A DNA stretch of 23,222 bases from a virus. The stretch covers positions 1 through 23,222 of the IMG/VR virus record IMGVR_UViG_3300027779_000166. The stretch is one strand, 5' to 3'. Every line of letters begins with the position of its first letter. The stretch's first letter is position 1. Below, piece after piece: positions 1-22,527 of the stretch. The notes beneath the pieces were generated by a model. The model saw nothing but the letters and a program-made list of their open reading frames with translations, ran no database searches and was not told the DNA's origin. Both the position numbers and the translations under genes were made by a program.

Positions 1-183
1 TCGTTTCTTTTGGCCACGCCTGTGAAAGAAAGCAAATATACCTCTTATCTTCCCCCCCTTCACAACTTGCGCACCAGATCTCCTTGAGTCAGAACCTTGC
101 TGGTCCAGTTCAGCATTAAGATGATCTAACGCATCTACAACATCAGTTAAAGTTTTTCCAGTTGGTTTACCTTCTTCGGCCAT
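1..183 (-). CDS. Partial gene, N-terminus of candidate tape measure protein
   Basis: The first 61 codons are in the window; the rest lies beyond the left edge. The ATG at 183 is preceded by an AAGGA ribosome binding site at 192-196 that overlaps the stop codon of the upstream frameshift extension, so translation is probably coupled. The visible protein starts MAEEGKPTGKTLTDVVDALD, has a short charged amphipathic helix, and then a basic stretch (FFHRRGQKKR). I do not recognise a domain. The tape measure idea rests on position only: in many tailed phages the gene right after a frameshifted tail assembly chaperone encodes the tape measure. It could equally be another hub or tail protein, for instance a counterpart of a gene in the T4 27-28-29 group. 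The reading frame is secure; the function is a guess. Confidence 0.6.
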   Translation of the reverse strand, partial: MAEEGKPTGKTLTDVVDALDHLNAELDQQGSDSRRSGAQVVKGGKIRGIFAFFHRRGQKKR

Positions 184-195
184 GTTTATTGTCCT

Positions 196-387
196 TTATC
201 TTTTGGCGTTTTCAGTTCTTATTCTATCGTTTTCTTCTTTAATCCAATTTTGTAACAAGATTACATATATTTGTCTTTCAAATGGTAACATATTATCAAG
301 TTCGGTTAGACTCCAATTATGGTGCTGAATCATAGCGAAGTTTGTTTGATAATGGTTCGCCAAGGAATCGTGACTCAGCGCTATCCG
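196..387 (-). CDS. Frameshift extension of the gp26-type protein (gp51-like or GT-like domain)
   Basis: This is a 63-codon open frame entered by a -1 shift on the slippery site at 387-393. It begins RIALSHDSLANHYQ and ends with TAA at 196-198, giving a fused product of 307 residues (244 + 63). It is strongly alpha-helical and amphipathic, with a core resembling the C-terminal segments of tail assembly chaperones as I remember them: NFAMIQHHNWSLTELDNM followed by LPFERQIYVILL. The only ATG inside it, at 333, has no ribosome binding site in front, which argues against independent initiation. In T4, gene 51 (hub assembly) directly follows gene 26, so this may be a reduced gp51 counterpart. It is easily missed because it has no start codon of its own with a usable signal. 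Frame and length are seen directly; expression by frameshifting is inferred. Confidence 0.75.
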   Translation of the reverse strand, partial: RIALSHDSLANHYQTNFAMIQHHNWSLTELDNMLPFERQIYVILLQNWIKEENDRIRTENAKR

Positions 388-1118
388 AAAAAAGAATCAA
401 TCCCCTCGATAATCACGGGTGTAGATTTTTTACATTTTCCACATTCCCAATCTATTGTGTGGCTTAATCTTGGCATAGATTCAAAAAATTCTCTTACGTT
501 AACGAATTGTGAGGAACTAAGAGATTCAATAAAATCATTTAGTTCTTTTTTAGTAGAATCTTTTGCCTTGTATATTTCATCTCCATCCCAAATGTATTCA
601 ATACAGTCTATAATCAGTTTAAATACATTTTCTGCTTCTATGTCTTCACCCTCAGTAGCATATTTTTGTACTGTTTCAAGTTGTGGAAATTTTAATTTTA
701 GTCCAATATCATCAGTAATTTTTATTTCTGTATTTTTAATTTTTGAAGTATCTAAAACAATATCATCAATATTAATATTAACTTCACAAATATCTTCTTC
801 TTTTGCCTCTTTACAACATTTAAAGTTTTCAGGTCTATGTGGGTTAATTGTTAAAACTTCCCCAATTGATCTCCCTCTAAGCTGAAGGAAAAAATATTCA
901 ATATCAAATGATGCAAGTGATTTAAGATCTACTTCTCCGTCTGTACAGGAAGTGATAATATCTTGCATGGCTTTGGTCATTGCTTGGTTGTCCCTAGCTT
1001 CCATTGCCATTAATAATGTCTTTTCTTCTTTTACAAGAAAAGGTCTGTAACTGACTTTTTCACCTGAAGAAGGAATTGTCAATTCATAAGTGGGTGATGT
1101 CACTCTTGGTAATGCCAT
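381..1118 (-). CDS. gp26: Baseplate hub assembly protein, gp26-type (T4 baseplate protein family)
   Basis: This 245-residue protein resembles the T4 gp26 baseplate hub family (T4 gp26 is about 208 residues). Features are an N-terminal segment MALPRVTSPTYELTIPSSG followed by YRPFLVKEEKTLLMA, an alpha-helical middle, a cysteine cluster at C101, C102 and C111, and a C-terminal C226-x-x-C229 pair. The two cysteine groups could together bind zinc; the arrangement looks like a split zinc ribbon. An excellent ribosome binding site, AGGAGA at 1124-1129, fixes the ATG at 1118. The gene ends DSFFG-stop on a -1 slippery heptamer, so it probably makes two products, the short form and a 307-residue extended form. 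In family terms it is a morphogenesis factor needed to assemble the central baseplate hub; the chaperone-like role suggested by the frameshift is inference. Confidence 0.75.
   Translation of the reverse strand: MALPRVTSPTYELTIPSSGEKVSYRPFLVKEEKTLLMAMEARDNQAMTKAMQDIITSCTDGEVDLKSLASFDIEYFFLQLRGRSIGEVLTINPHRPENFKCCKEAKEEDICEVNINIDDIVLDTSKIKNTEIKITDDIGLKLKFPQLETVQKYATEGEDIEAENVFKLIIDCIEYIWDGDEIYKAKDSTKKELNDFIESLSSSQFVNVREFFESMPRLSHTIDWECGKCKKSTPVIIEGIDSFFG
387..393 (-). promoter_or_regulatory. Programmed -1 ribosomal frameshift site (T TTT TTC)
   Basis: On the minus strand the zero-frame codons read TCT TTT TTC GGA TAG, so the heptamer T TTT TTC fits the X XXY YYZ rule exactly. A -1 slip continues as CGG ATA GCG and avoids the TAG stop just one sense codon further on. 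The site lies at the very end of the gp26-type gene, which is where G/GT chaperone frameshift sites are found. I did not find an obvious stem-loop by eye, but did not fold the RNA. Confidence 0.75.
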
Positions 1119-1148: not shown

Positions 1149-1712
1149 TTATTCTTGTGTCCACCAACTATAGTTTATATCTACTGTAAAGTCTACTAGT
1201 TCCGCGCTTTCCCATCCTAGTTCTATAGCACTTATTGTTTTCGGCCAACATTCATGCAATGTTACTTTATGGGTAGGGGTTTCCGCGGCTTTGGATTCTT
1301 CATTATAAACTGAAATTGAAACTGTTCCTATAAAATCTTTATAGTATTGCATATTATACGAAGAGTTACTTTGTATATGTTCATGCCAATCATACCAAAA
1401 TTTTCTAGCTTTCCAATCATTTGTACCTAAGAAAGTAATTGATACATTCTCTTCTGTCACTTCATAAGGAACTTCCAATCCAAATTTACCGCCCCGTCTA
1501 TAGGTGGTTGATCCAAAAGATCTACTTGGAAAGGATACCGCTTTAATAAGAAATTCTATTGATGCGGCCGGAACATCACTATTTAATGTTGTTGGTGGTA
1601 TAATTTCAACAGTAAATCTATTTCTTTTTGCATAACTTCCTAGACCATCTAATTTGGCCATAAAATCATTTATTGCAAAATCTGCCGGTCCTGTCGGTGC
1701 TGGTGCTGCCAT
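1149..1712 (-). CDS. Tail-tube-fold protein (gp19/gp54-like)
   Basis: This 187-residue protein has the look of the T4 gp19 tail tube family: an N-terminal helix followed by a beta-rich core with KRNRFTVEIIPP, then VSITFLGTNDWKARKFWYDW, then a C-terminal half reading DFIGTVSISVYN, KVTLHECWPKTISAIELGW and VDFTVDINYSWW. Tube subunits, the T4 tube initiator gp54 and parts of gp48 share this fold. It is not in the usual place for the main tube gene (next to the sheath gene 18) but sits with hub-assembly genes, so a gp54-like tube initiator or specialised tube-end ring is more likely than the bulk tube protein. Its ATG overlaps the upstream stop (TAATG at 1710-1714), which implies translational coupling. 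The fold call is fairly confident; the choice between gp19 and gp54 is open. Confidence 0.72.
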   Translation of the reverse strand: MAAPAPTGPADFAINDFMAKLDGLGSYAKRNRFTVEIIPPTTLNSDVPAASIEFLIKAVSFPSRSFGSTTYRRGGKFGLEVPYEVTEENVSITFLGTNDWKARKFWYDWHEHIQSNSSYNMQYYKDFIGTVSISVYNEESKAAETPTHKVTLHECWPKTISAIELGWESAELVDFTVDINYSWWTQE

Positions 1713-2794: not shown

Positions 2795-3784
2795 ATGAAA
2801 ATTTACACAGAAGTTATATATTTTTGGGATGATGATAAAGGTGAGTTAGTACAAGAATCTTCAAAATTCTATGATTATGTTGGGCCATTAACTTTGGCTA
2901 ATGATTCATCCACCGGAATAATGGACCCCACCACTTCAGCGCAAACACCATGCCAATACTATGAATATCCCTCTGATATTGGTAACTATAGTGGTGGTAG
3001 TGGTACTGACAATTGGATATCCTTTGAAGCATTTAGTTTTAAATCTCAGATGAAAACTCTTGATGTAGCATTATATATTCCCGGTGATGCTCTAAACACA
3101 TCATATAAATCAGAATATGAAGCAGTTGCATTAGGTGGACTAGGAGCTATGGCGGATAAAGCTGTTAAATCAATGCAAAATTCATCCGCACAGAAAGGGG
3201 GAATGAATCTTGAAAATTTAAAAAGTGTTTTGAGTGCTCAGTCGTCAGCCACGGGCAGTGAATCAGCAAAAGTAGGAATGCTTAAGGCGGGAGAGAAAGC
3301 GAACATTTTGATAGAAGGATCAAAAACTATAATGGAACGAGCACAGGGAGCGGTACTCAATCCTTATATTGTTGCTGCATATAAAGGCCCTACTGATATG
3401 AGAACACATGATTTTAGTTTTCAAATGTTACCACAAGATGTAAATGAATCTAAGGCTTGTCTAAAAATTGTGAACGCATTTAAAAGAGCCATGTTACCTT
3501 CTCATGGAGGAGGAGATGCTAAAACATCACCTTCAATGATGTTTGGATATCCGGATCAATTTACAATCGAATTTTATATTGCCGGTAGGTCATTACCTTC
3601 CAGCGGTTTAAATCCTATGTTTAATGTGGGGAAATCAGTATTGCTTGGTTGTGATTTAGACTTTAATACAGAAAGTGTGCCTTTATTTTTTGATGGTACA
3701 CAATATCCAGTAACTATATCAATGAAACTTTCGTTTATGGAGCTAGAAGTAATGTATCGAGAAAGAATAAAACAAGGAGCGTAA
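2795..3784 (+). CDS. gp48: Baseplate tail tube cap protein, gp48-like
   Basis: The 329-residue protein resembles T4-like gp48, which sits on top of the hub and caps the start of the tail tube; gp54 is the main alternative. The start chosen at 2795 gives MKIYTEVIYFWDDDKGELVQ. A glycine- and serine-rich N-terminal third is followed by a helical region with small residues (about 110-195). Next comes a tube-like core with NPYIVAAYKGPTDMRTHDF and FQMLPQDVNESKACLKIV, and a beta-rich C-terminal end closing with KLSFMELEVMYRERI. That closing motif is typical of proteins with the gp19/gp48/gp54 tube fold. It is followed after three bases by gp53, as fits a baseplate operon under the late promoter at 2744. 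The tube-fold baseplate call is good; choosing gp48 over gp54 is less certain. Confidence 0.72.
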   Translation: MKIYTEVIYFWDDDKGELVQESSKFYDYVGPLTLANDSSTGIMDPTTSAQTPCQYYEYPSDIGNYSGGSGTDNWISFEAFSFKSQMKTLDVALYIPGDALNTSYKSEYEAVALGGLGAMADKAVKSMQNSSAQKGGMNLENLKSVLSAQSSATGSESAKVGMLKAGEKANILIEGSKTIMERAQGAVLNPYIVAAYKGPTDMRTHDFSFQMLPQDVNESKACLKIVNAFKRAMLPSHGGGDAKTSPSMMFGYPDQFTIEFYIAGRSLPSSGLNPMFNVGKSVLLGCDLDFNTESVPLFFDGTQYPVTISMKLSFMELEVMYRERIKQGA

Positions 3785-8631: not shown

Positions 8632-11301
8632 ATGTCAGGAGCAATTGATAAAAAAATAATTGAAATAAGAGAAGAGTTGAATAGTAGTCCAACTACTCAT
8701 TTATCTGCGCGTACTGGAATTCTTGATGGTGTTACGTTATCAAGAGAATTTGCCCAAACGCGATTAAATGCATTATGTGAAAAATTGACTTCTGTTATTT
8801 TTTCTCTTTATATTCAATTGGAGGATCAGGCTGCAGGTAACAATCTTCTTTTAGAAGATGCCAATGAAATATTACTGGAAGCATCTACTTTTGATGCAAG
8901 TTATTCTCTTGGTCAAGTATGTGAAAATTTAGCAAAACAACGTGCTATATGTTATGGTGCTAGAGACTTAAAAAATTCTTCTAAGAAATTTGATTTACCG
9001 GCCTATGAAACAGTAAATGGAGCTCTTAATCTCACAGAACCTAATACTTCTTTTATGGGAATTAAGGCTACTGATATCGGCGAAACATTCACTATCAACT
9101 TAACAAGTTTGTCTGGAACACAAACACAAGGTAGTAATACATTTAGTACTGATGTTCGGGATTATTATCTAGTTAGGTCAAGAGTAACTGGAGAGTTAAT
9201 AGACATTAATGATAGCATTACTCCATATTCTACACCAGATAGTGATACTGTTTTTGGTAACGCAATTGCTTGGGGTGGAGATGTAACAGCCGAAGCTGGA
9301 ACATGGAACGCAGACTATGCAAAAGCAAACATTGCTAGTGTAGGATTACAAAGTGAGGGATTGTATAATGAATTAAAAATTATGACATTACAAGACCATT
9401 TGGAACAAGGTAGTAATACCAGTTATACTACACTGGGTGCATCATTCGGCCAGAAGTTTTATTTAAAAAGACATAGTGATTATGTGAACACGTTTACTAT
9501 TATCGGCACAACTAAATTTGATAGTATAGAAGTTACAGGAATATCAGACGAGGACCTCGCAAAAATTAAATATGGTGATGTGATTAGTGGTGAAGGTATT
9601 CCAGATAATAATGTAACAATCGCAGGACTAAAAACTGTAGACAGTAAAATCAGACTTAGCAATACAGGAGTTGCAACAGAAAGTGGAACGGTTACTCTTA
9701 CTGTAAATAGTGTTCCATTTGGATATCAACAGAATGATATATTTTGTCAGTTAGAAATAGTAGGAGAGGGAATAGTAACAAATCCAGATTGGAAGCCGGT
9801 TGGTGATGATGCTGGTGATTATAGTGGATCAGATGCCGGAGCAGATGCTTTATTAAATGCTAATACTTCTCAATTTATAGGGCTACTTGGTTTCTTTGAT
9901 CCAGATAATGGAAGTGCTAATGCAACGAATGATTTGTCAAAGAGTGCAAGGGGTGATTGGGTGTCTGAAGGAAAAGAATATAATGGAACTTCATATCCTT
10001 ACATAGAACGAAGTCCATTCTTTCCAGCAATAGGATCAACTCATAAGGCGTATGAAGTAGATAATGGTGAAATTGTGGGATCACAACCTGCCGGATTAGG
10101 TGAAGATGATATTCCTTCTGGTAGATATGTTAGATGGGATGTAAAAAGAGCGGATGAGACTGGAGCCTTACCAGAGAACAGATATGTTACAGACTCCGCA
10201 GAAAAATTCTATTATGAATTACCATCTACTTCACAGTATACTTGTGGTACGATTACTGTAGGCACTACACATCCTATGCCTAATACTGGAGAACCGATTG
10301 CCTCCATTGGTAAAACTGGATTGTCAGATGCTGTAACGAGAGTACAGGGAGCATCCGTTACTGCAAATGGTGTTTCGGTTTCTGTGAATGATACAATAAC
10401 TGTACCAGCCGATACTAATACAACAACCGCGGCTACAAGTGGATCATCAAGCGCGCCCACTGCAAATGCAACTATAGGTACTTATTATACTCTTGGTTCA
10501 GATAATTTAATTTATGTTAATAGATATCATTATGAATCTGTTACCATCACTTCTGGGTCTAATTGGACTGCCACAACGGCCACAGATACATCTACCTTTC
10601 CATGCAAATATAATTTTGCACAGAAACACATATATGAGGCAGGCGGTACAGCAAACTCTACAATGAATGCTGATGTACAATTTATAGGTGATACAGTAAG
10701 TGATTTGGTGGATGTTGTTGGTTTTCGTGATCCGGTTATAGATGTGGATACGGCACAAGCAGGTGGAAGTGGTATAAGTGATAATGCATTCGATACCTAT
10801 GTTTCAACCGAAGAACTACGTGCAACCGATTTGGCAGGATTACAAACGGCATTGACAAATTATCGCACGGATACCGATTTAACCAACAGGACAGGACCTA
10901 ACAATAGTGGAAGTGGATTGGGTGCAGATATAGATTTTGCGAATACTACATGGGCAGCTTATCATACTGAAGTAGGAACATTTGGTACTAACTGTGGAAA
11001 GAGAGTTACAGAAATAGATACTCGTATTGGTGTGCCGACTCGTTCTGGAACTCAATCGACTACAAGAGGTGATGCACCAGCAATTTATGTGTCAGCGATT
11101 CCAACAGCAAATACTACTGGTGGTCTAGTTCCTTATGGTAGAGCAATTTATAATAGTTGTAATAATTTACTAGGAAAAGATCTTAAAATGATGACGCAGT
11201 TAATACAAGATATTCAAAGTTTAGATAGTTTGGTAGATTTAGTAAAAAAGGCTAGAAACAAATATGAAATTTTTAATGGTAGAGCGAAGGAGTATAGCTA
11301 A
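8632..11301 (+). CDS. Large virion structural protein of unknown function with an LED motif
   Basis: The product is 889 residues. Residues 1-62 are helical, starting MSGAIDKKIIEIREELN. At residues 63-83 comes an acidic motif, LEDQAAGNNLLLED followed by ANEILLE, almost the same as one in the gp7 protein (residue 1432 on). A helix with SLGQVCENLAKQRAICYGAR follows. The middle (about 140-750) is beta-rich and full of Thr, Ser, Gly and Asn, including a sandwich-like module near 290-360 (ISDEDLAKIKYGDVISGEGI). The C-terminal 60 residues are helical (LLGKDLKMMTQLIQDIQSLD). The helical ends with a beta-rich centre fit a fibrous or decorating tail component. It lies between the spike genes and gp25, overlaps the next gene (TAATG), and has AGGATA upstream of its ATG. 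No known family is assigned. Confidence 0.68.
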   Translation: MSGAIDKKIIEIREELNSSPTTHLSARTGILDGVTLSREFAQTRLNALCEKLTSVIFSLYIQLEDQAAGNNLLLEDANEILLEASTFDASYSLGQVCENLAKQRAICYGARDLKNSSKKFDLPAYETVNGALNLTEPNTSFMGIKATDIGETFTINLTSLSGTQTQGSNTFSTDVRDYYLVRSRVTGELIDINDSITPYSTPDSDTVFGNAIAWGGDVTAEAGTWNADYAKANIASVGLQSEGLYNELKIMTLQDHLEQGSNTSYTTLGASFGQKFYLKRHSDYVNTFTIIGTTKFDSIEVTGISDEDLAKIKYGDVISGEGIPDNNVTIAGLKTVDSKIRLSNTGVATESGTVTLTVNSVPFGYQQNDIFCQLEIVGEGIVTNPDWKPVGDDAGDYSGSDAGADALLNANTSQFIGLLGFFDPDNGSANATNDLSKSARGDWVSEGKEYNGTSYPYIERSPFFPAIGSTHKAYEVDNGEIVGSQPAGLGEDDIPSGRYVRWDVKRADETGALPENRYVTDSAEKFYYELPSTSQYTCGTITVGTTHPMPNTGEPIASIGKTGLSDAVTRVQGASVTANGVSVSVNDTITVPADTNTTTAATSGSSSAPTANATIGTYYTLGSDNLIYVNRYHYESVTITSGSNWTATTATDTSTFPCKYNFAQKHIYEAGGTANSTMNADVQFIGDTVSDLVDVVGFRDPVIDVDTAQAGGSGISDNAFDTYVSTEELRATDLAGLQTALTNYRTDTDLTNRTGPNNSGSGLGADIDFANTTWAAYHTEVGTFGTNCGKRVTEIDTRIGVPTRSGTQSTTRGDAPAIYVSAIPTANTTGGLVPYGRAIYNSCNNLLGKDLKMMTQLIQDIQSLDSLVDLVKKARNKYEIFNGRAKEYS
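8818..8886 (+). repeat. LED motif near the N-terminus of the 889-residue protein
   Basis: Residues 63-85, LEDQAAGNNLLLED then ANEILLEAS. It is the counterpart of the gp7 motif at 20161-20229. The DNA is also similar in places (for example AACAATCTTCTTTTAGAAGA against AACAACCTTCTTTTGGAAGA). Confidence 0.75.
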
Positions 11302-15867: not shown

Positions 15868-18800
15868 GTGGCTGTAGTTAAAGATAAAAAAGATGTATCT
15901 GTTTTATTAGAAACTCAGTTACCAGAGTTTATAAACAAGGAACATCCGAAGTTCAAAAAATTCATAGAAAAATACTATGAATTTATGGAATCCCACCAAC
16001 TTTATTTTGGCACCTCATTTACATTCAATGAAGACAAGATATTAGCTGAAACTAACCCAGATGGCATAATTTATTTACTATTTGAAGATGGTCTTCACCT
16101 TCAATTAGAGTCTGACCGTGATACGGCCGGTAATGCAAATCTCATGTTCTCGCTTGGAGAAACCCTTACAGGTAATACAAGTGGAGCAACCGCAGTCGTT
16201 TCTGGTACAAAAGGTAATACTATTACTTTTGTAAAATCTTCTAGCGTAGCAGGATTTACATACGGAGAAAAACTTACAGGTAGTGTCACCGGTTCATACG
16301 GTACTTTAGCAAATGGTATTGTTGATGGAATATTCCCCACAGGATCAATAGAATCTTTTCGTAGTAAAGCACCCGCCGCCGCAATAAGAGAATTATCTGA
16401 ATCACAAGATATTGATACTACGTGTGAAGGTCTTATTGATGATGCATGGAAAAAAGAATTTTATACAAACCTCCCAAAGACAGCAGTTACAGATAGACGA
16501 CAACTTCTTAAAAGAATGAAGCAGGTCTATCGAGCAAAAGGAAATGAGGCCTCTTTTACTTGGTTATTTCAATCATTGTTTAATAAAGAAGATATAGAAT
16601 TTTATTATCCTAAAACAGATTTATTGAGAATGTCTGATGGAAGATGGGCACTTGATAAATCAATTAAAATTCTAACATCTGGCGCAAATAATATTACTTT
16701 ATTTACTGGTAGAAGAATCACGGGCCAACTTTCCAAATGTACCGCTATGGTGGAAAGTCAACAAACTTCTTTTGCGGGAGCTCTTCAAGTTACTGAATTA
16801 AGATTATCAGATGTTGTGCAGGGTATTACTGATGGAATATTGTTTTACTTCAAGCCCGGTGAAGTGATTATATCGGAAACTGATATATACGGAAAATCTG
16901 CAGATGCAATCACAACAGGAATTTTACAAACTGTTCAGGTAGATGTTGGTGGAACCAATTATGTAGTCGGTGATGAAATTCATGTTAATGGTGGTGGTGG
17001 TCAAGGTGCACGTGCGAGAGTTGCAGTTATTTTAGATTCTGTTATTGAAGGTATTACTGTTATAGATTCAGGTGATGGATATGCCGTGGGTGATACAGTT
17101 GAATTTATTAATGATGGGACTGGTGGAAGCGGAGCTACAGCACAAGTTAATACAATTATTCCTACAGGCACAGTCTTAAAAAATTCAGATTTTGTATCCG
17201 CTTCTATGGCAAACCAAATAGCCGCGGCAGATTATGCAGGAACATTCCTGGGGCATAATGCTAATACAGCTTTGTTTGGTAATTCTTCTCTAACATTTTC
17301 TGCGGGAATTAAATCAACTACTGCAAAACTTTATGATAATCAAGGAAATTATAATGCCACCTTACATATTCTTCCCGGAGATAGAATTGCGAAACAAGTA
17401 AGTGTAGACACATCCGGTGTAACCCTCACACAATCTGTAAAGACTGTTACTCTTTCATCGGGACTTACTGAAGAAGAAAAATTAGATGTTGTTGGTGGTA
17501 AACTTACTTATGCAAATGCGAATACTAATATTGTTACAGGCTTTTCTAGTAATACTGTTTTAACTGTTAGGGACACTCACACAATTGGAGCAGGCCAAAC
17601 ATTCGAAGTTGAATATGCAAGTAATACTTATTGGGGCACAGTTATTAGTGCCAATACTACCACATTTTTATATTCTGTTGGTTCTTATTATCGAGATTCA
17701 GATATAGGTGCTTTGACTGTACAGAATTTTGTTAATGATGATAACATCATAGTATATAATAATAAATTTACTAAATTGGGGGCCGCGGCCGCGGGATCAG
17801 GAGTGGATGCACATCTTATGCATAATGGTGTTACCTTTCAAGTTGGTAATACTCCTGCCTCTGTAACAACCGATACATTTACAATAGTAGATGCTCATGG
17901 TGCATTAGCTGATGTAATTGCTGTTTGTTCTGGCGCTCTCAATATGACTTCTATGGAGGTCGGAGCACTTGACACTTTTCTTGTTACATCGGGTGGAGGA
18001 AAATATGAATCAGAACCTCCTGTTTCTGTTGCTAATAGGTATACTCCAATTTTAGGAAATGCATTAGATGTAATAGGTGCACCTAACACCTTACTTAATG
18101 TAAATTTACATTCATTTAATTCAGGAACAATTGCACAAGATGGTACTGTAGTCACCTTAACTAGTGAAGAATCATTTCCGGATGCAAATTCTGGAGTACT
18201 TATACTTACATACGCAAATGGGGCCACAGATAGTGTAACTGCAGTTACTAATTCTACTGTTATTACAGTAGCTACAGAGAAAGTTTTTGGAGTTGGTGTA
18301 GGAGATTTTCCTGATAAACAAACCTATTCGCTGTCATACATGGCTATAGCGAATAACATCACAAAGAATACTTTACTCTATAGTGATGATTATTCTGCAA
18401 GAGCTAGAGTTCTTGATTTTATAGATACGAAATCAAATCTTCCTGGTGATAATCCATACATTGCTTATGGTAATACAGTTCTTAGAGTAGATATGACTAC
18501 TGCTCAAGATTTTGGTGGTATTTTAGAAAACATATTACTAGAAGAAAAGAATTTTCATAATAATCGTTATAGTACTGAAAAACTTGTATTAGAAGATATA
18601 ATTGCCGGTCAAGGCCCCCATTCTGGTGTTGGATCTGTAGATGGTGGCGGTGGTGCGATTTTAACAGAAGATTGTGTTGAGTTCATTTTAACAGAAGCAG
18701 ATGATTCACTTGTTGCAGAAGTAGATGGAACAAGATTTTATACAGAACAGACTACAGGCTCACGTGTTACCGCATATACTAATGCCGTTTCCACATATAC

Positions 18801-21800
18801 CACAGGAACTATGGCCCAATCCGGGCTTGTAGTTACAGGAGTTGGTACTGTATTTCCAAATGATTTTGTTCGTGGAACTATTACCTATCACGATTCTACT
18901 ACCTCTACAATAACTGGATATACTAATGCCACATCATTCACAGTAGAAGATTCAAAAACAGTAGGGGCAGGTAACACATATTCAATCAGTTATAATTCTG
19001 CTTTAACGTGGGGAACAAACCGTGTCATTACGCTATCAGCTGGTGGTGCAGGAAATAGAACGGTTACTGTAACGGAATCTGGACACCATTTAAGGTCAGG
19101 AGACAAGGTTAAGATTTCTGGATCTGGAACTGCTATCTTTAATGGTATATACCACATTGATGGTAAAGGTGCAAACAATGATACTTACTGTTATACTTTA
19201 CCAGAAAATACAGCAGTAACTTCTCCTGCCGGTGAAATTAGAGCAATGCCGGTTGCGTCTGTATGGCTTGCAGCGACTAATGCAGTTTCAATGGATACCT
19301 CACCGAAAGGTAATAATGCCATAATTGAAGTTTCCGCTATTGCAATTGGTGCAATTCAGACAGCTGAAGTTTATGATTTTGGTGCAGGGTATTCTAGTAC
19401 TCCTGATCTTTCAACTACTTCTGGTGATCAAAATGCTGAACTTACTGCGGGACTTGGAGCTTATGCAACATATCCTGGATATTACACCACCACAGATGGA
19501 TTACTTAGTGGTGTACCGAAAGTTCAAGACAATAAATATTATCAAAATTTTTCTTATGTTCTAAAAACTGATTTTGATGTAAACGATTATCGTAATTCAG
19601 TAAAAAGATTGACTCACCCATCTGGTCTGGTAATGTTTGGTGAGTTGGCTATACGAGGTAAAGTATCAGTAGAAATGTTCGATCAGGGTGCGAGTGGAAA
19701 TGTTGACAGTTTGGGAACTATTGAACAGGCCGGGTTAGATAATGAAGGAAGAAAATATCATAACATTACTCTATTCAATGCAAATACTCCGAGTATAAAT
19801 GTACAACTTACATCGTATGGTAGTAATAATGAACTAGAAATTTATACTGCAGACCATCCGTGGCAAGCGATGGATGCAAGGTTGGAGACATTCGATGAAG
19901 TAAATCTTCAACTGGAAAATTATGTAGAAATTTCGTCTATAGCACGAACCAATTCTACAATGTATGTGGTTACAGGAACATTACATGGACTAGAAACTGG
20001 TGATACGGTTGAATTTTCTGGGGATGAATCCACACAACAATTCAATAGCAATTATACTGTTACATCAGCACCCACTACAAACACATATACTATTACTCCA
20101 TCACCAGATCATGGTTCCTCTGTTTCACAATCCATGTATGACGGATATCTTTATGCAGCATTGGAAGATCAAGACACCGGAAACAACCTTCTTTTGGAAG
20201 ATGGAAATGACTTGCTGCTGGAACCATCAAATTATCTGAAATCTAAAGTAATAGCATATGCAGATGTTTTTCGTCTGAATGCAACAAATTGGGATTCACC
20301 CTTTTCTGGTGGTGTTTTAAATGAAGATGGTACTGAAATTCTACTTGAACGTGGAGGAACTTATCTCTATCCATCAATTCAATTTCCTGAAGCTGAGTCA
20401 GGGGTTATATCCATTGATATGAGTTTTAATAGCGATGTACTTCTTGAAGACGACAATGGAACTTATGGATATGGTTATCTTTTAGATGAAACTTCTGCTG
20501 GATCAGGTAGTGGTCCTCAAAGATTTATTTCTCTTGAAGAAGATACACAAGGACCGAATCATCAATATGAGAGTATTCCAATTGTAGATACTCATGTTAT
20601 TGAAACTTGGTATAATTCAACAAGGAAACATCTACTTGCAGAAGATGGCTTAGATCGTTTCATGTATGAAGACGAAAACCTATTAACATTAGACACTATA
20701 GAGATTTTAAAGGATAGCTCCTTTATCCAAAGACCCTCTCTTTTTATACATTATAATTGTATTATAGCAGAAGATGGTTCACCTTTAATTAATGAAAGTG
20801 GCCTTGGCTCTAGTCTAAGTAATTCTTATTTTACAGTAGAAGATGAATATGGTGTAAATAACAACAACGCACTTGATGTAATATTTAATCTTGTTGAGAC
20901 TACACATTGGCATCTACGAATGGAAGACACATCTCATATATGGTATGAAGATGGTACAAGGATGTTGTCTGAAGAAGATTATGTAAAAACGCCAGTTTAC
21001 GAAATAGAGACACACATTTATGATACAATGGGGTATCACTTAAGAATGGAAGATGATTCTCATCTTATTCATGAAGATACTACTTATGCTCTTGTAGAAA
21101 GAAGTCACCCAGCTGTTGTCAAGCCAGAAATAGAATATTATCTTTATGAGACTCTTGATTGGCATTTAATGATGGAAGATGATATTCTACATCTTGGTAA
21201 TGAAGATGGAACACGTTTACTTACTGAACAGGAACAGGCCGCGAATAATGTTTATAGTGATAAAGAGATTATTTTGAAAGAATCTACCTATGGATATCGT
21301 GTAGTATTGGAAGATCCAGATCCCAATCCAATCATTAAAACTGTAACAGCTGTTTCTGGAAAATTTCATATAGATGGTGTACAAAACCCCGTACTTACTT
21401 TACAAGGAGGAGGAACGTATCGTTTTGATCATAGTGATTCATCAAATGCCGATCATCCATTTAGATTTTCTCTAACATCTGATGGCCATCATACAGGTGG
21501 AACTCACTTTATAGATGGGGTGACAATAGTAGAACCAACTGGCCCTGGATCTGCTGGAGCTTATGTTGAAATAAAGACGGCAGACATAACACAAACAATT
21601 TATTATCATTGTCATACTCATAGCAATATGGGCTCGGCAATACAATTAACTGAACATAGAGGAAAGCTGATATTTGAAGATTCAACAACAGGAGAATCTT
21701 TGTCAAGAATGATGATTGAGGAAGATAAAGTAAAATCTAGTGATCATATTGTCACATTAGATCTACTTGGAGAAGTATTAGCTTTTGAAGATGGTTCAGG

Positions 21801-22527
21801 ATATTTCATTCATGAAGGTATCACACCTAATAGAACATTGGTAACACCACAAGTACCAGGTGTTAGGGGTGCAGAATCAAATTACATGTATCCTTCTAGA
21901 AAGACTGGTTCAATTTCTATTGTAGCAAATTCAGCAACAGTACAAGGATCATCAGTCACATCATTTACTACTGAGCTTGCTGTTGGAGATGTTATCCAAA
22001 CAGCGGATGAAAATGTTCTTCAAGAAGCGAGTGAAGATACAGTAATATTTGAAACATTAGAAATTATAGCTCATGAAGAAGTAACAGTCGCCGGGGTTCA
22101 AAACCATGTTATTAATGGAATAGAAGCCTATATTATTAATACATTTAAGTGGTATATTGGTCATGAAGATAGTGCAGAAGAGGCACATGAATTTACCCCT
22201 AACGTAATAGGAAGCTATGTAGTAGATCAAAATGATGAACACTATAATATGATTGATGAAAGTTCTGATTATGGTAAACGTATTGAATTGGAAGATGATA
22301 GCGGACGGTTACTTATGGAAGTTAACGAATTTACTGAAGGAGACGCCATCCTTATAGAAAGTGGTGATAAGATGCTTTATACTGAAAAAGGAGAATTCCA
22401 AATAGCTTCAATTACTGATGATGATACCTTAACAGTAACAAGAACAATTTGGGAAGGTACTGATTATGTGCCTTTCTGGAAACACACAACGGATTACGAA
22501 TCTACCGCCGTTGTTTCGTATAAATAA
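15868..22527 (+). CDS. gp7: Giant baseplate wedge protein gp7 with LED-repeat and cupredoxin-like extension
   Basis: This gene encodes 2219 residues from a GTG start two bases after the gp6 stop; no Shine-Dalgarno sequence is seen. It lies between gp6 and gp8 as in T4. Block one (residues about 15-270) has LPEFINKEHPKFKKFIEKYY, then LLKRMKQVYRAKGNEASFTW, then LFQSLFNKEDIEFYYPKTDL. It aligns with the T4 gp7 stretch RSYDFYSTKGIEASYKFLFK. Block two (about 1225-1265) has FSYVLKTDFDVNDYRNSVKR, then LTHPSGLVMFGELAI, like the T4 FVHPVGFGFIAIT region. Between them are beta-rich modules, three of them related. After block two come an acidic LED-repeat array (about 1430-1820), a cupredoxin-like domain (1824-1929) and further LED-type segments to the end. 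T4 gp7 is 1032 residues, so over a thousand residues are extra. Function of the extension is unknown; surface display on the wedge is a guess. Confidence 0.82.
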   Translation: MAVVKDKKDVSVLLETQLPEFINKEHPKFKKFIEKYYEFMESHQLYFGTSFTFNEDKILAETNPDGIIYLLFEDGLHLQLESDRDTAGNANLMFSLGETLTGNTSGATAVVSGTKGNTITFVKSSSVAGFTYGEKLTGSVTGSYGTLANGIVDGIFPTGSIESFRSKAPAAAIRELSESQDIDTTCEGLIDDAWKKEFYTNLPKTAVTDRRQLLKRMKQVYRAKGNEASFTWLFQSLFNKEDIEFYYPKTDLLRMSDGRWALDKSIKILTSGANNITLFTGRRITGQLSKCTAMVESQQTSFAGALQVTELRLSDVVQGITDGILFYFKPGEVIISETDIYGKSADAITTGILQTVQVDVGGTNYVVGDEIHVNGGGGQGARARVAVILDSVIEGITVIDSGDGYAVGDTVEFINDGTGGSGATAQVNTIIPTGTVLKNSDFVSASMANQIAAADYAGTFLGHNANTALFGNSSLTFSAGIKSTTAKLYDNQGNYNATLHILPGDRIAKQVSVDTSGVTLTQSVKTVTLSSGLTEEEKLDVVGGKLTYANANTNIVTGFSSNTVLTVRDTHTIGAGQTFEVEYASNTYWGTVISANTTTFLYSVGSYYRDSDIGALTVQNFVNDDNIIVYNNKFTKLGAAAAGSGVDAHLMHNGVTFQVGNTPASVTTDTFTIVDAHGALADVIAVCSGALNMTSMEVGALDTFLVTSGGGKYESEPPVSVANRYTPILGNALDVIGAPNTLLNVNLHSFNSGTIAQDGTVVTLTSEESFPDANSGVLILTYANGATDSVTAVTNSTVITVATEKVFGVGVGDFPDKQTYSLSYMAIANNITKNTLLYSDDYSARARVLDFIDTKSNLPGDNPYIAYGNTVLRVDMTTAQDFGGILENILLEEKNFHNNRYSTEKLVLEDIIAGQGPHSGVGSVDGGGGAILTEDCVEFILTEADDSLVAEVDGTRFYTEQTTGSRVTAYTNAVSTYTTGTMAQSGLVVTGVGTVFPNDFVRGTITYHDSTTSTITGYTNATSFTVEDSKTVGAGNTYSISYNSALTWGTNRVITLSAGGAGNRTVTVTESGHHLRSGDKVKISGSGTAIFNGIYHIDGKGANNDTYCYTLPENTAVTSPAGEIRAMPVASVWLAATNAVSMDTSPKGNNAIIEVSAIAIGAIQTAEVYDFGAGYSSTPDLSTTSGDQNAELTAGLGAYATYPGYYTTTDGLLSGVPKVQDNKYYQNFSYVLKTDFDVNDYRNSVKRLTHPSGLVMFGELAIRGKVSVEMFDQGASGNVDSLGTIEQAGLDNEGRKYHNITLFNANTPSINVQLTSYGSNNELEIYTADHPWQAMDARLETFDEVNLQLENYVEISSIARTNSTMYVVTGTLHGLETGDTVEFSGDESTQQFNSNYTVTSAPTTNTYTITPSPDHGSSVSQSMYDGYLYAALEDQDTGNNLLLEDGNDLLLEPSNYLKSKVIAYADVFRLNATNWDSPFSGGVLNEDGTEILLERGGTYLYPSIQFPEAESGVISIDMSFNSDVLLEDDNGTYGYGYLLDETSAGSGSGPQRFISLEEDTQGPNHQYESIPIVDTHVIETWYNSTRKHLLAEDGLDRFMYEDENLLTLDTIEILKDSSFIQRPSLFIHYNCIIAEDGSPLINESGLGSSLSNSYFTVEDEYGVNNNNALDVIFNLVETTHWHLRMEDTSHIWYEDGTRMLSEEDYVKTPVYEIETHIYDTMGYHLRMEDDSHLIHEDTTYALVERSHPAVVKPEIEYYLYETLDWHLMMEDDILHLGNEDGTRLLTEQEQAANNVYSDKEIILKESTYGYRVVLEDPDPNPIIKTVTAVSGKFHIDGVQNPVLTLQGGGTYRFDHSDSSNADHPFRFSLTSDGHHTGGTHFIDGVTIVEPTGPGSAGAYVEIKTADITQTIYYHCHTHSNMGSAIQLTEHRGKLIFEDSTTGESLSRMMIEEDKVKSSDHIVTLDLLGEVLAFEDGSGYFIHEGITPNRTLVTPQVPGVRGAESNYMYPSRKTGSISIVANSATVQGSSVTSFTTELAVGDVIQTADENVLQEASEDTVIFETLEIIAHEEVTVAGVQNHVINGIEAYIINTFKWYIGHEDSAEEAHEFTPNVIGSYVVDQNDEHYNMIDESSDYGKRIELEDDSGRLLMEVNEFTEGDAILIESGDKMLYTEKGEFQIASITDDDTLTVTRTIWEGTDYVPFWKHTTDYESTAVVSYK
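17404..17616 (+). repeat. Beta-module repeat, copy 1 (in gp7)
   Basis: Residues 513-583 of gp7 (V-D-T-S-G-V-T-L ... VEY). This is one of three degenerate protein-level copies sharing a Gly-Thr start, a central 'VT...GKLTYANANT' strand pair, a 'S-N-T-V-L-T-V' strand and a closing GAGQTFEVEY. Confidence 0.6.
18121..18339 (+). repeat. Beta-module repeat, copy 2 (in gp7)
   Basis: Residues 752-824. The copy reads SGTIAQDGTVVTL, then GVLILTYANGATDSVTAVT, then NSTVITVATEKVFGVG, and closes TYSLSY. Same order of elements as copies 1 and 3. Confidence 0.65.
18802..18993 (+). repeat. Beta-module repeat, copy 3 (in gp7)
   Basis: Residues 979-1042. The copy reads TGTMAQSGLVVTGVGTVFP, then RGTITYHDSTTSTITGYT, then NATSFTVEDSKTVGAG, and closes NTYSISY. 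It is closest to copy 2. Confidence 0.65.
20161..20229 (+). repeat. LED motif shared with the 889-residue protein (in gp7)
   Basis: Residues 1432 on of gp7 read LEDQDTGNNLLLED then GNDLLLEPS. The 889-residue protein has LEDQAAGNNLLLED then ANEILLEAS at 8818-8886. The match covers 23 residues with few changes, while the surrounding sequences are unrelated by eye. Confidence 0.75.
20626..21330 (+). repeat. Array of acidic LED-type repeats (in gp7)
   Basis: Six units begin at 20626, 20755, 20908, 21034, 21160 and 21295, so the spacings are 43, 51, 42, 42 and 45 residues. The three middle copies are the best kept: WHLRMEDTSHIWYEDGTRML, YHLRMEDDSHLIHEDTTYAL and WHLMMEDDILHLGNEDGTRL. A unit is an aromatic residue, then H-L-x-M-E-D, then about seven residues, then E-D-G-T-x-x-L-x-x-E, then a spacer with an aromatic beta strand. 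The regular acidic pairs could bind calcium or stabilise a beta-solenoid; neither is proven. Confidence 0.8.
21337..21654 (+). other. Cupredoxin-like domain within gp7
   Basis: Residues 1824-1929 of gp7. The domain starts with KTVTAVSGKFHIDGV and a strand LTLQGGGTYRFDHSD. It then has ADHPFRFSLTSDG with H1863, GSAGAYVEIKTADITQTIYY, and the ligand loop C1915-H-T-H1918-S-N-M1921 followed by GSAI. The H...C-x-x-H-x-x-M set matches the type 1 copper ligands of cupredoxins; the C-x2-H-x2-M spacing is that of amicyanin. Copper binding is inferred; a structural role without metal is possible. Confidence 0.7.
22519..22526 (+). promoter_or_regulatory. T4-type late promoter octamer TATAAATA (upstream copy)
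   Basis: A perfect TATAAATA made from the last codons of gp7 (TCG TAT AAA TAA), so promoter and stop codon overlap. Predicted start of transcription is near 22532, about 68 bases before the gp8 ATG. Confidence 0.65.

Follow-up and report, generated by a model that had tools for sequence, protein, structure and literature searches.

In phage lambda, a short form, G, and a long form, GT, reached by a −1 frameshift, are encoded between the tail tube and tape measure genes, and the second frame needs no start of its own; the lambda slip site is G GGA AAG, against T TTT TTN at the locus described here. A three-part −1 signal is known from Escherichia coli dnaX, where a Shine-Dalgarno (SD)-like element lies upstream and is combined with the slippery heptamer A AAA AAG and a hairpin. 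T4 needs gp51 to assemble its hub, and the finished particle lacks this protein (PMC3004832). Genes 26 and 51 of T4-like phages have apparently been linked to tail assembly chaperones (TACs) by Vladimirov et al. 2022, as cited in PMC10885494 and PMC12846349, and the latter also cites these authors for polyT slippery sequences, named there as −1 signals known in the TAC-N genes of T4-like phages. As represented in these citing papers, the central idea, that T4-like phages encode tail assembly chaperones in this way, appears already to have been published (Vladimirov et al. 2022).

Here we describe an added, well-documented example of this arrangement, in a DNA stretch of 23,222 nt (the window) from a marine T4-like phage. 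We are highly confident that this locus codes for a tail assembly chaperone with two isoforms, the long one made by a −1 frameshift. What can be read from the sequence in support of this is the slippery site, its conservation, the constraint on the −1 frame, an SD-like element, the gene order and colinearity with T4 gp51. The features are as follows.

1149–1712, minus strand: gene for a tail tube-type protein, upstream of gp26.
381–1118, minus strand, including the stop codon at 383–381: gp26, the predicted short form (TAC-N, G-like), 245 aa.
402–407, minus strand: SD-like element GAGGGG, 8 nt upstream of the heptamer, a presumed stimulator.
387–393, minus strand: slippery heptamer T TTT TTC, in phase with the zero frame.
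199–387, minus strand, with its stop at 198–196: −1 frame extension of 63 codons, the gp51 C-terminal domain (T-like).
324–379, minus strand: downstream hairpin, beginning 7 nt 3′ of the heptamer.
379–371 with 332–324, minus strand: outer, 9-bp stem of the hairpin.
361–356 with 339–334, minus strand: inner stem of the hairpin.
1–183, minus strand: start of the next gene, truncated at the window edge, coding for the tape measure N-terminus.

The zero frame runs from 1118 to 381 and ends GAT TCT TTT TTC GGA TAG. After a −1 slip, the fused long form would comprise 307 aa with the junction ...DSFF|RIALSH... (F244–R245); recomputed frames confirmed the coordinates, lengths and junction given in the preliminary description of this DNA. 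The ribosome-binding site (RBS) of gp26 is ATAGGAGAA, with an anti-SD energy of −7.3 kcal/mol, and the tape measure gene, which follows the gp51 frame, has one of −5.3 kcal/mol at its start; both RBSs are good.

Profile searches bear out the identities first proposed for both frames. The 245-aa gp26 matches PF12322 (T4_baseplate; E 1.7e-58, profile positions 2–218 of 219) and phrog_150 (baseplate hub; E 1.6e-64), and the 63-aa product of the −1 frame matches phrog_634 (gp51; E 3.7e-27, positions 58–118 of 121). A profile built from −1 peptides retrieves T4 gp51, and the domain is present in 652 phage records; its predicted structure has three helices (pLDDT 86). In the viral library, the AlphaFold model of gp26 (pLDDT 87) matches proteins of the gp26 type along with further phage proteins. 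Upstream, the protein at 1149–1712 matches phrog_45 (tail tube; E 5.4e-31) and PF06841 (Phage_T4_gp19; E 8e-9). Downstream, the 61 residues of the next gene that lie in the window are 77% identical to the N-terminus of a relative's 932-aa protein (L010:3935-6730), which in turn matches phrog_58 (tape measure; E 6e-16). The order tube, 26, 51, tape measure is that of lambda V (tube), G, T and H (tape measure). Elsewhere in the window, a motif of the type LLLEDG(x)nLLLE occurs in about 10 repeats in a 2219-aa protein with a GTG start (15868–22527) and once in an 889-aa protein (8632–11301).

Comparison with T4 suggests how its two genes relate to the predicted isoforms. Residues 1–201 of T4 gp51 match PF12322 (E 3.9e-52), and the predicted fusions align without a gap across the junction with the long-form gp51 of T4, 44RR2.8t, Acinetobacter phage MD-2021a and Enterobacter phage EC-F2 (DSFF|RIALSHDSL in the fusion, VDVF|KLLVNPDEI in T4-type gp51). 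T4 gp26 ends just past the same FF that marks the fusion junction. On this colinearity, T4 gp51 equals the complete long form, with a full gp26-like domain followed by the C-terminal one, and T4 gp26 is the short form. T4 thus has two paralogous, diverged genes (26 short, 51 long) where the window phage uses a predicted frameshift; short and long forms share about 20% identity. The link first drawn between T4 26/51 and the G/GT layout holds with one correction: the two T4 genes are not a first half plus a second half, gp51 carrying both domains. Two further observations concern these phages: T4 gp26 (L086 3803-4429) has a weak profile match to phrog_1140, the family of the hub distal subunit gp28 (E 9e-4), and EC-F2 (L183 1501-2794) carries a long-form gene and, in tandem with it on the same strand, a short gp26-like gene annotated as hypothetical, whereas the T4 pair is divergent.

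Several lines of evidence bear on how the gp51 domain is translated. First, a stop codon interrupts the −1 frame of the window a short way ahead of the slip, and no start codon lies between the two. Its first start candidates are TTG at 363 and ATG at 333, with anti-SD energies of −2.2 and +2.4 kcal/mol, and by this measure no RBS was found for either in the window, in keeping with the original claim that the second frame lacks a start signal. We computed pN/pS for the stretch from the slip to the first Met in 30 distinct close relatives: the −1 frame gives 0.14, the remaining two frames 1.5 and 2.1, and in 17 of the 30 the stretch holds no ATG, GTG or TTG at all. By these substitution ratios, the −1 frame is under purifying selection across this stretch; with this selection acting before the first Met, and with more than half of the relatives start-less there, translation must therefore enter from gp26.

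The same data bear on the possibility that gp51 is a separate small gene whose translation begins within the −1 frame, either through internal initiation or through termination–reinitiation at the gp26 stop. Most database records annotate it so. GenBank has such a short gene for Mosig, P-SSM2, Melnitz-3, pf16, Sf-CH8 and Milchi, and an ATG overlaps the gp26 stop (TAATG or TGATG) in nt-1 (L179), S-CRM01 (L085), Mendera (L081) and RHph_I1_9 (L082), all of which also keep T TTT TTN; in these four, dual expression by frameshift plus reinitiation is possible, as their sequences suggest. Against a separate gene stand the lack of an RBS at the first candidates in the window, a conserved domain that begins at the slip itself, the selection upstream of the first Met and the fused state of T4 gp51. 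Further, S-WAM1 and S-H9-1 carry the domain with gp51 wholly omitted from their annotation. We regard separate initiation as very unlikely. In GenBank, gp51 is a truncated separate gene or missing in P-SSM2, Mosig, Melnitz-3, S-WAM1, S-H9-1, pf16 and Milchi, and slippage or a joined coding sequence is annotated in none of the phage records inspected for these loci; no description of the extent of this misannotation was found in the literature searched.

Second, the slippery site is conserved. Viral contigs and phage records together yielded about 180 loci. We inspected the junctions by script in the first 174, placing gp26 and the gp51 domain by profile at each, which resulted in 135 distinct junctions. 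For the contig scans, alignments A1 and A2 were too diverse and narrower queries were used instead; scans with Aeh1 and RHph_I1_9 as queries yielded only 7 loci and 1 locus, respectively. The gp51 domain sits in the −1 frame at all 135 distinct junctions. Of these, 134 have T TTT TTN in phase (118 TTTTTTC, 14 TTTTTTT and 2 TTTTTTG), in 130 cases exactly one codon ahead of the zero-frame stop, whereas elsewhere in these genes the in-phase motif occurs at 0.2% of codons. The single junction without the heptamer (L114) also lacks the end of gp26 and was set aside; there, at 1275–1896, a gp26 without its C-terminus and slip site abuts the gp51 frame, either through a genuine deletion or through faulty assembly. 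The site is present in 17 of 17 intact junctions in a set of 18 representatives below 60% identity, which only partly corrects for one locus set that was found through conserved gp51 patterns and is weighted to cyanophage-like sequences.

This conservation exceeds what the protein needs. Both the T before the Phe pair and the choice of TTT as the first Phe codon go beyond codon-usage expectation (log10 P −3.7 and −3.0, respectively), and control Phe pairs elsewhere in the same genes show the same pattern in 3 of 19 cases. A second in-phase T TTT TTC inside gp26 (codons 75–76), taken as a negative control, is not conserved among relatives (20 TTT TTC, 14 TTC TTT). Together with the junction counts, this synonymous test yields what is expected of programmed −1 frameshifting, an X XXY YYZ heptamer that is in phase and more conserved than the protein sequence requires. 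On these comparisons, the slippery site at the end of gp26 is not due to chance, and the frameshift site initially proposed, for which a check on homologues had been suggested, stands.

Third, candidate stimulatory elements flank the heptamer on both sides, an SD-like element upstream and structure downstream. The anti-SD energy of GAGGGG is −8.0 kcal/mol, and pairing of −4 kcal/mol or stronger at this spacing is found in 14 of 17 diverged representatives, compared with 5.8% elsewhere in the genes. The encoded amino acids (Glu/Lys-Gly) are conserved, and codon choice is biased as well: the Glu codon is GAG in 36 of 39 sequences against a background of 24% (p 1.5e-19, related sequences not being independent) and in 7 of 9 in the set below 60% identity (p 9e-4). 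In the sequences inspected, over 20 nt separate the element from the closest start that gp51 could use, a distance too large for an RBS of gp51. Downstream, the 90 nt after the heptamer in the window fold with −21.4 kcal/mol (z −2.5); across representatives the mean z is −2.2, compared with −0.29 in control windows of the same genes (p 5e-7). All 24 distinct relatives in the window's clade retain the complete 9-bp outer stem, with three consistent one-sided changes, and the hairpin arms are nearly frozen at synonymous sites. Covariation in the same 24 distinct rows is thin, with no excess over shuffles, so the exact hairpin structure rests on its stability and on this silent-site freezing. In the literature searched, we found no description of an SD-like element and hairpin for the T4-like gp26/gp51 group.

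These elements also bear on transcriptional slippage on the run of six or seven T, which would give a mixed mRNA and the same two proteins. Long T or A runs are known substrates for polymerase slippage; a run of six T ended by C, though, is short for efficient slippage of this kind, and the phase T|TTT|TTN, the fixed spacing of the SD-like element and the hairpin fit ribosomal slippage better. We judge a transcriptional origin highly improbable. The idea that a sequencing or assembly indel has split what is in truth one continuous in-frame fusion, such as T4-type gp51 is, has next to no probability and was rejected, refuted by the junction survey: the same frame relation recurs in 134 distinct junctions from metagenome contigs and finished phage genomes, and an in-frame fused version was not seen among frameshift-type loci.

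In the ribosomal frameshifting mechanism that we infer, which takes in slippage itself, its efficiency, the stimulatory role of both RNA elements and the chaperone function, most ribosomes would stop at TAG and release the 245-aa short form, gp26. A fraction would slip back one base on U UUU UUC, aided by anti-SD pairing of the element 8 nt upstream and by the hairpin 7 nt downstream, and would make the 307-aa long form ending in the gp51 domain. The likeliest function, on the model of lambda G/GT, is to chaperone the tape measure protein. The short form would coat this product of the next gene or keep it soluble, the extra domain of the long form would recruit tube subunits or hub parts, and neither form would stay in the virion.

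The part of the preliminary description that tied the locus to G/GT is upheld by the layout before the tape measure gene, with two predicted isoforms that share an N-terminus and are encoded between the genes for tube and tape measure; no structural homology to lambda GpG was detected. Profile comparison of the window proteins with lambda G by hhalign gave nothing, and a sequence search against solved structures found nothing. With HK97 gp13 (2OB9), 3FGX and 3KLU as the reference set for the TAC fold, the PDB matches of the gp26 model were all insignificant, one of them being 3fgx (E 7, probability 0.16, 57 columns at 2.3 Å), which is a TAC (PMC9603447). Foldseek with the 63-aa domain returned zero significant matches, and none of the Pfam TAC families was significant, Phage_TAC_3 appearing in 2 of 71 members at E 0.28.

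Among relatives, some loci look, from their sequences, like natural intermediates between recoding and separate genes. Besides nt-1, S-CRM01, Mendera and RHph_I1_9, these include Vibrio phage D533, which has an overlapping ATG and no canonical heptamer, and Kuttervirus BPS6 (L180), whose gp26 homologue is of the Ackermannviridae type. In BPS6, a gp51-like −1 frame (HLIFEIDLLSYF...) follows position 3244 without a canonical heptamer, and the first start codon comes only 32 nt past the gp26 stop; a non-canonical slip may occur at GAG ATT TTC ATT TAA. We put forward tentatively, as a proposal just short of an even chance, that the gp26-to-gp51 frameshift, with its three-part signal of SD-like element, U UUU UUN and hairpin, is ancestral in the T4-like supergroup and that gene duplication replaced it in the T4 branch, by way of intermediates with both slip site and stop-overlapping ATG (nt-1, S-CRM01 and Mendera). 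If so, this one trait displays the full route from recoding to two genes.

The nearest known counterparts of the locus include the gp26/gp51 loci of Kyanoviridae and other T4-like phages (P-SSM2, S-WAM1, P-RSM6, Mosig, Melnitz, pf16 and Aeh1), which have the same heptamer type, frame relation and domain, and differ in being more distant in sequence and, in some, in an ATG just past the stop. In cyanophages, pelagiphages and relatives, the inspected database records split or drop the long form. Vandenendeviridae and Andersonviridae TACs (phage Adele, PMC12846349) likewise show, ahead of the tape measure gene, a −1 frameshift at conserved polyT, with a different motif, GTTTTT. The dnaX signal shares all three elements and differs in its heptamer and in belonging to an unrelated gene, and lambda G/GT shares the layout with no detectable sequence similarity to the window proteins. 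In T4, 44RR2.8t, MD-2021a and EC-F2, the proteins belong to the same families, and their short and long forms diverge at the same column as here; by contrast, a separate gene encodes the long form there, oriented divergently to 26 in T4 and 44RR, and no frameshift is needed. Gp26 and gp51, long-puzzling hub proteins of T4, would thereby gain a clear role as two forms, short and long respectively, of a single chaperone, and the two groups of phages offer a natural comparison of recoding and gene duplication as two routes to two isoforms.
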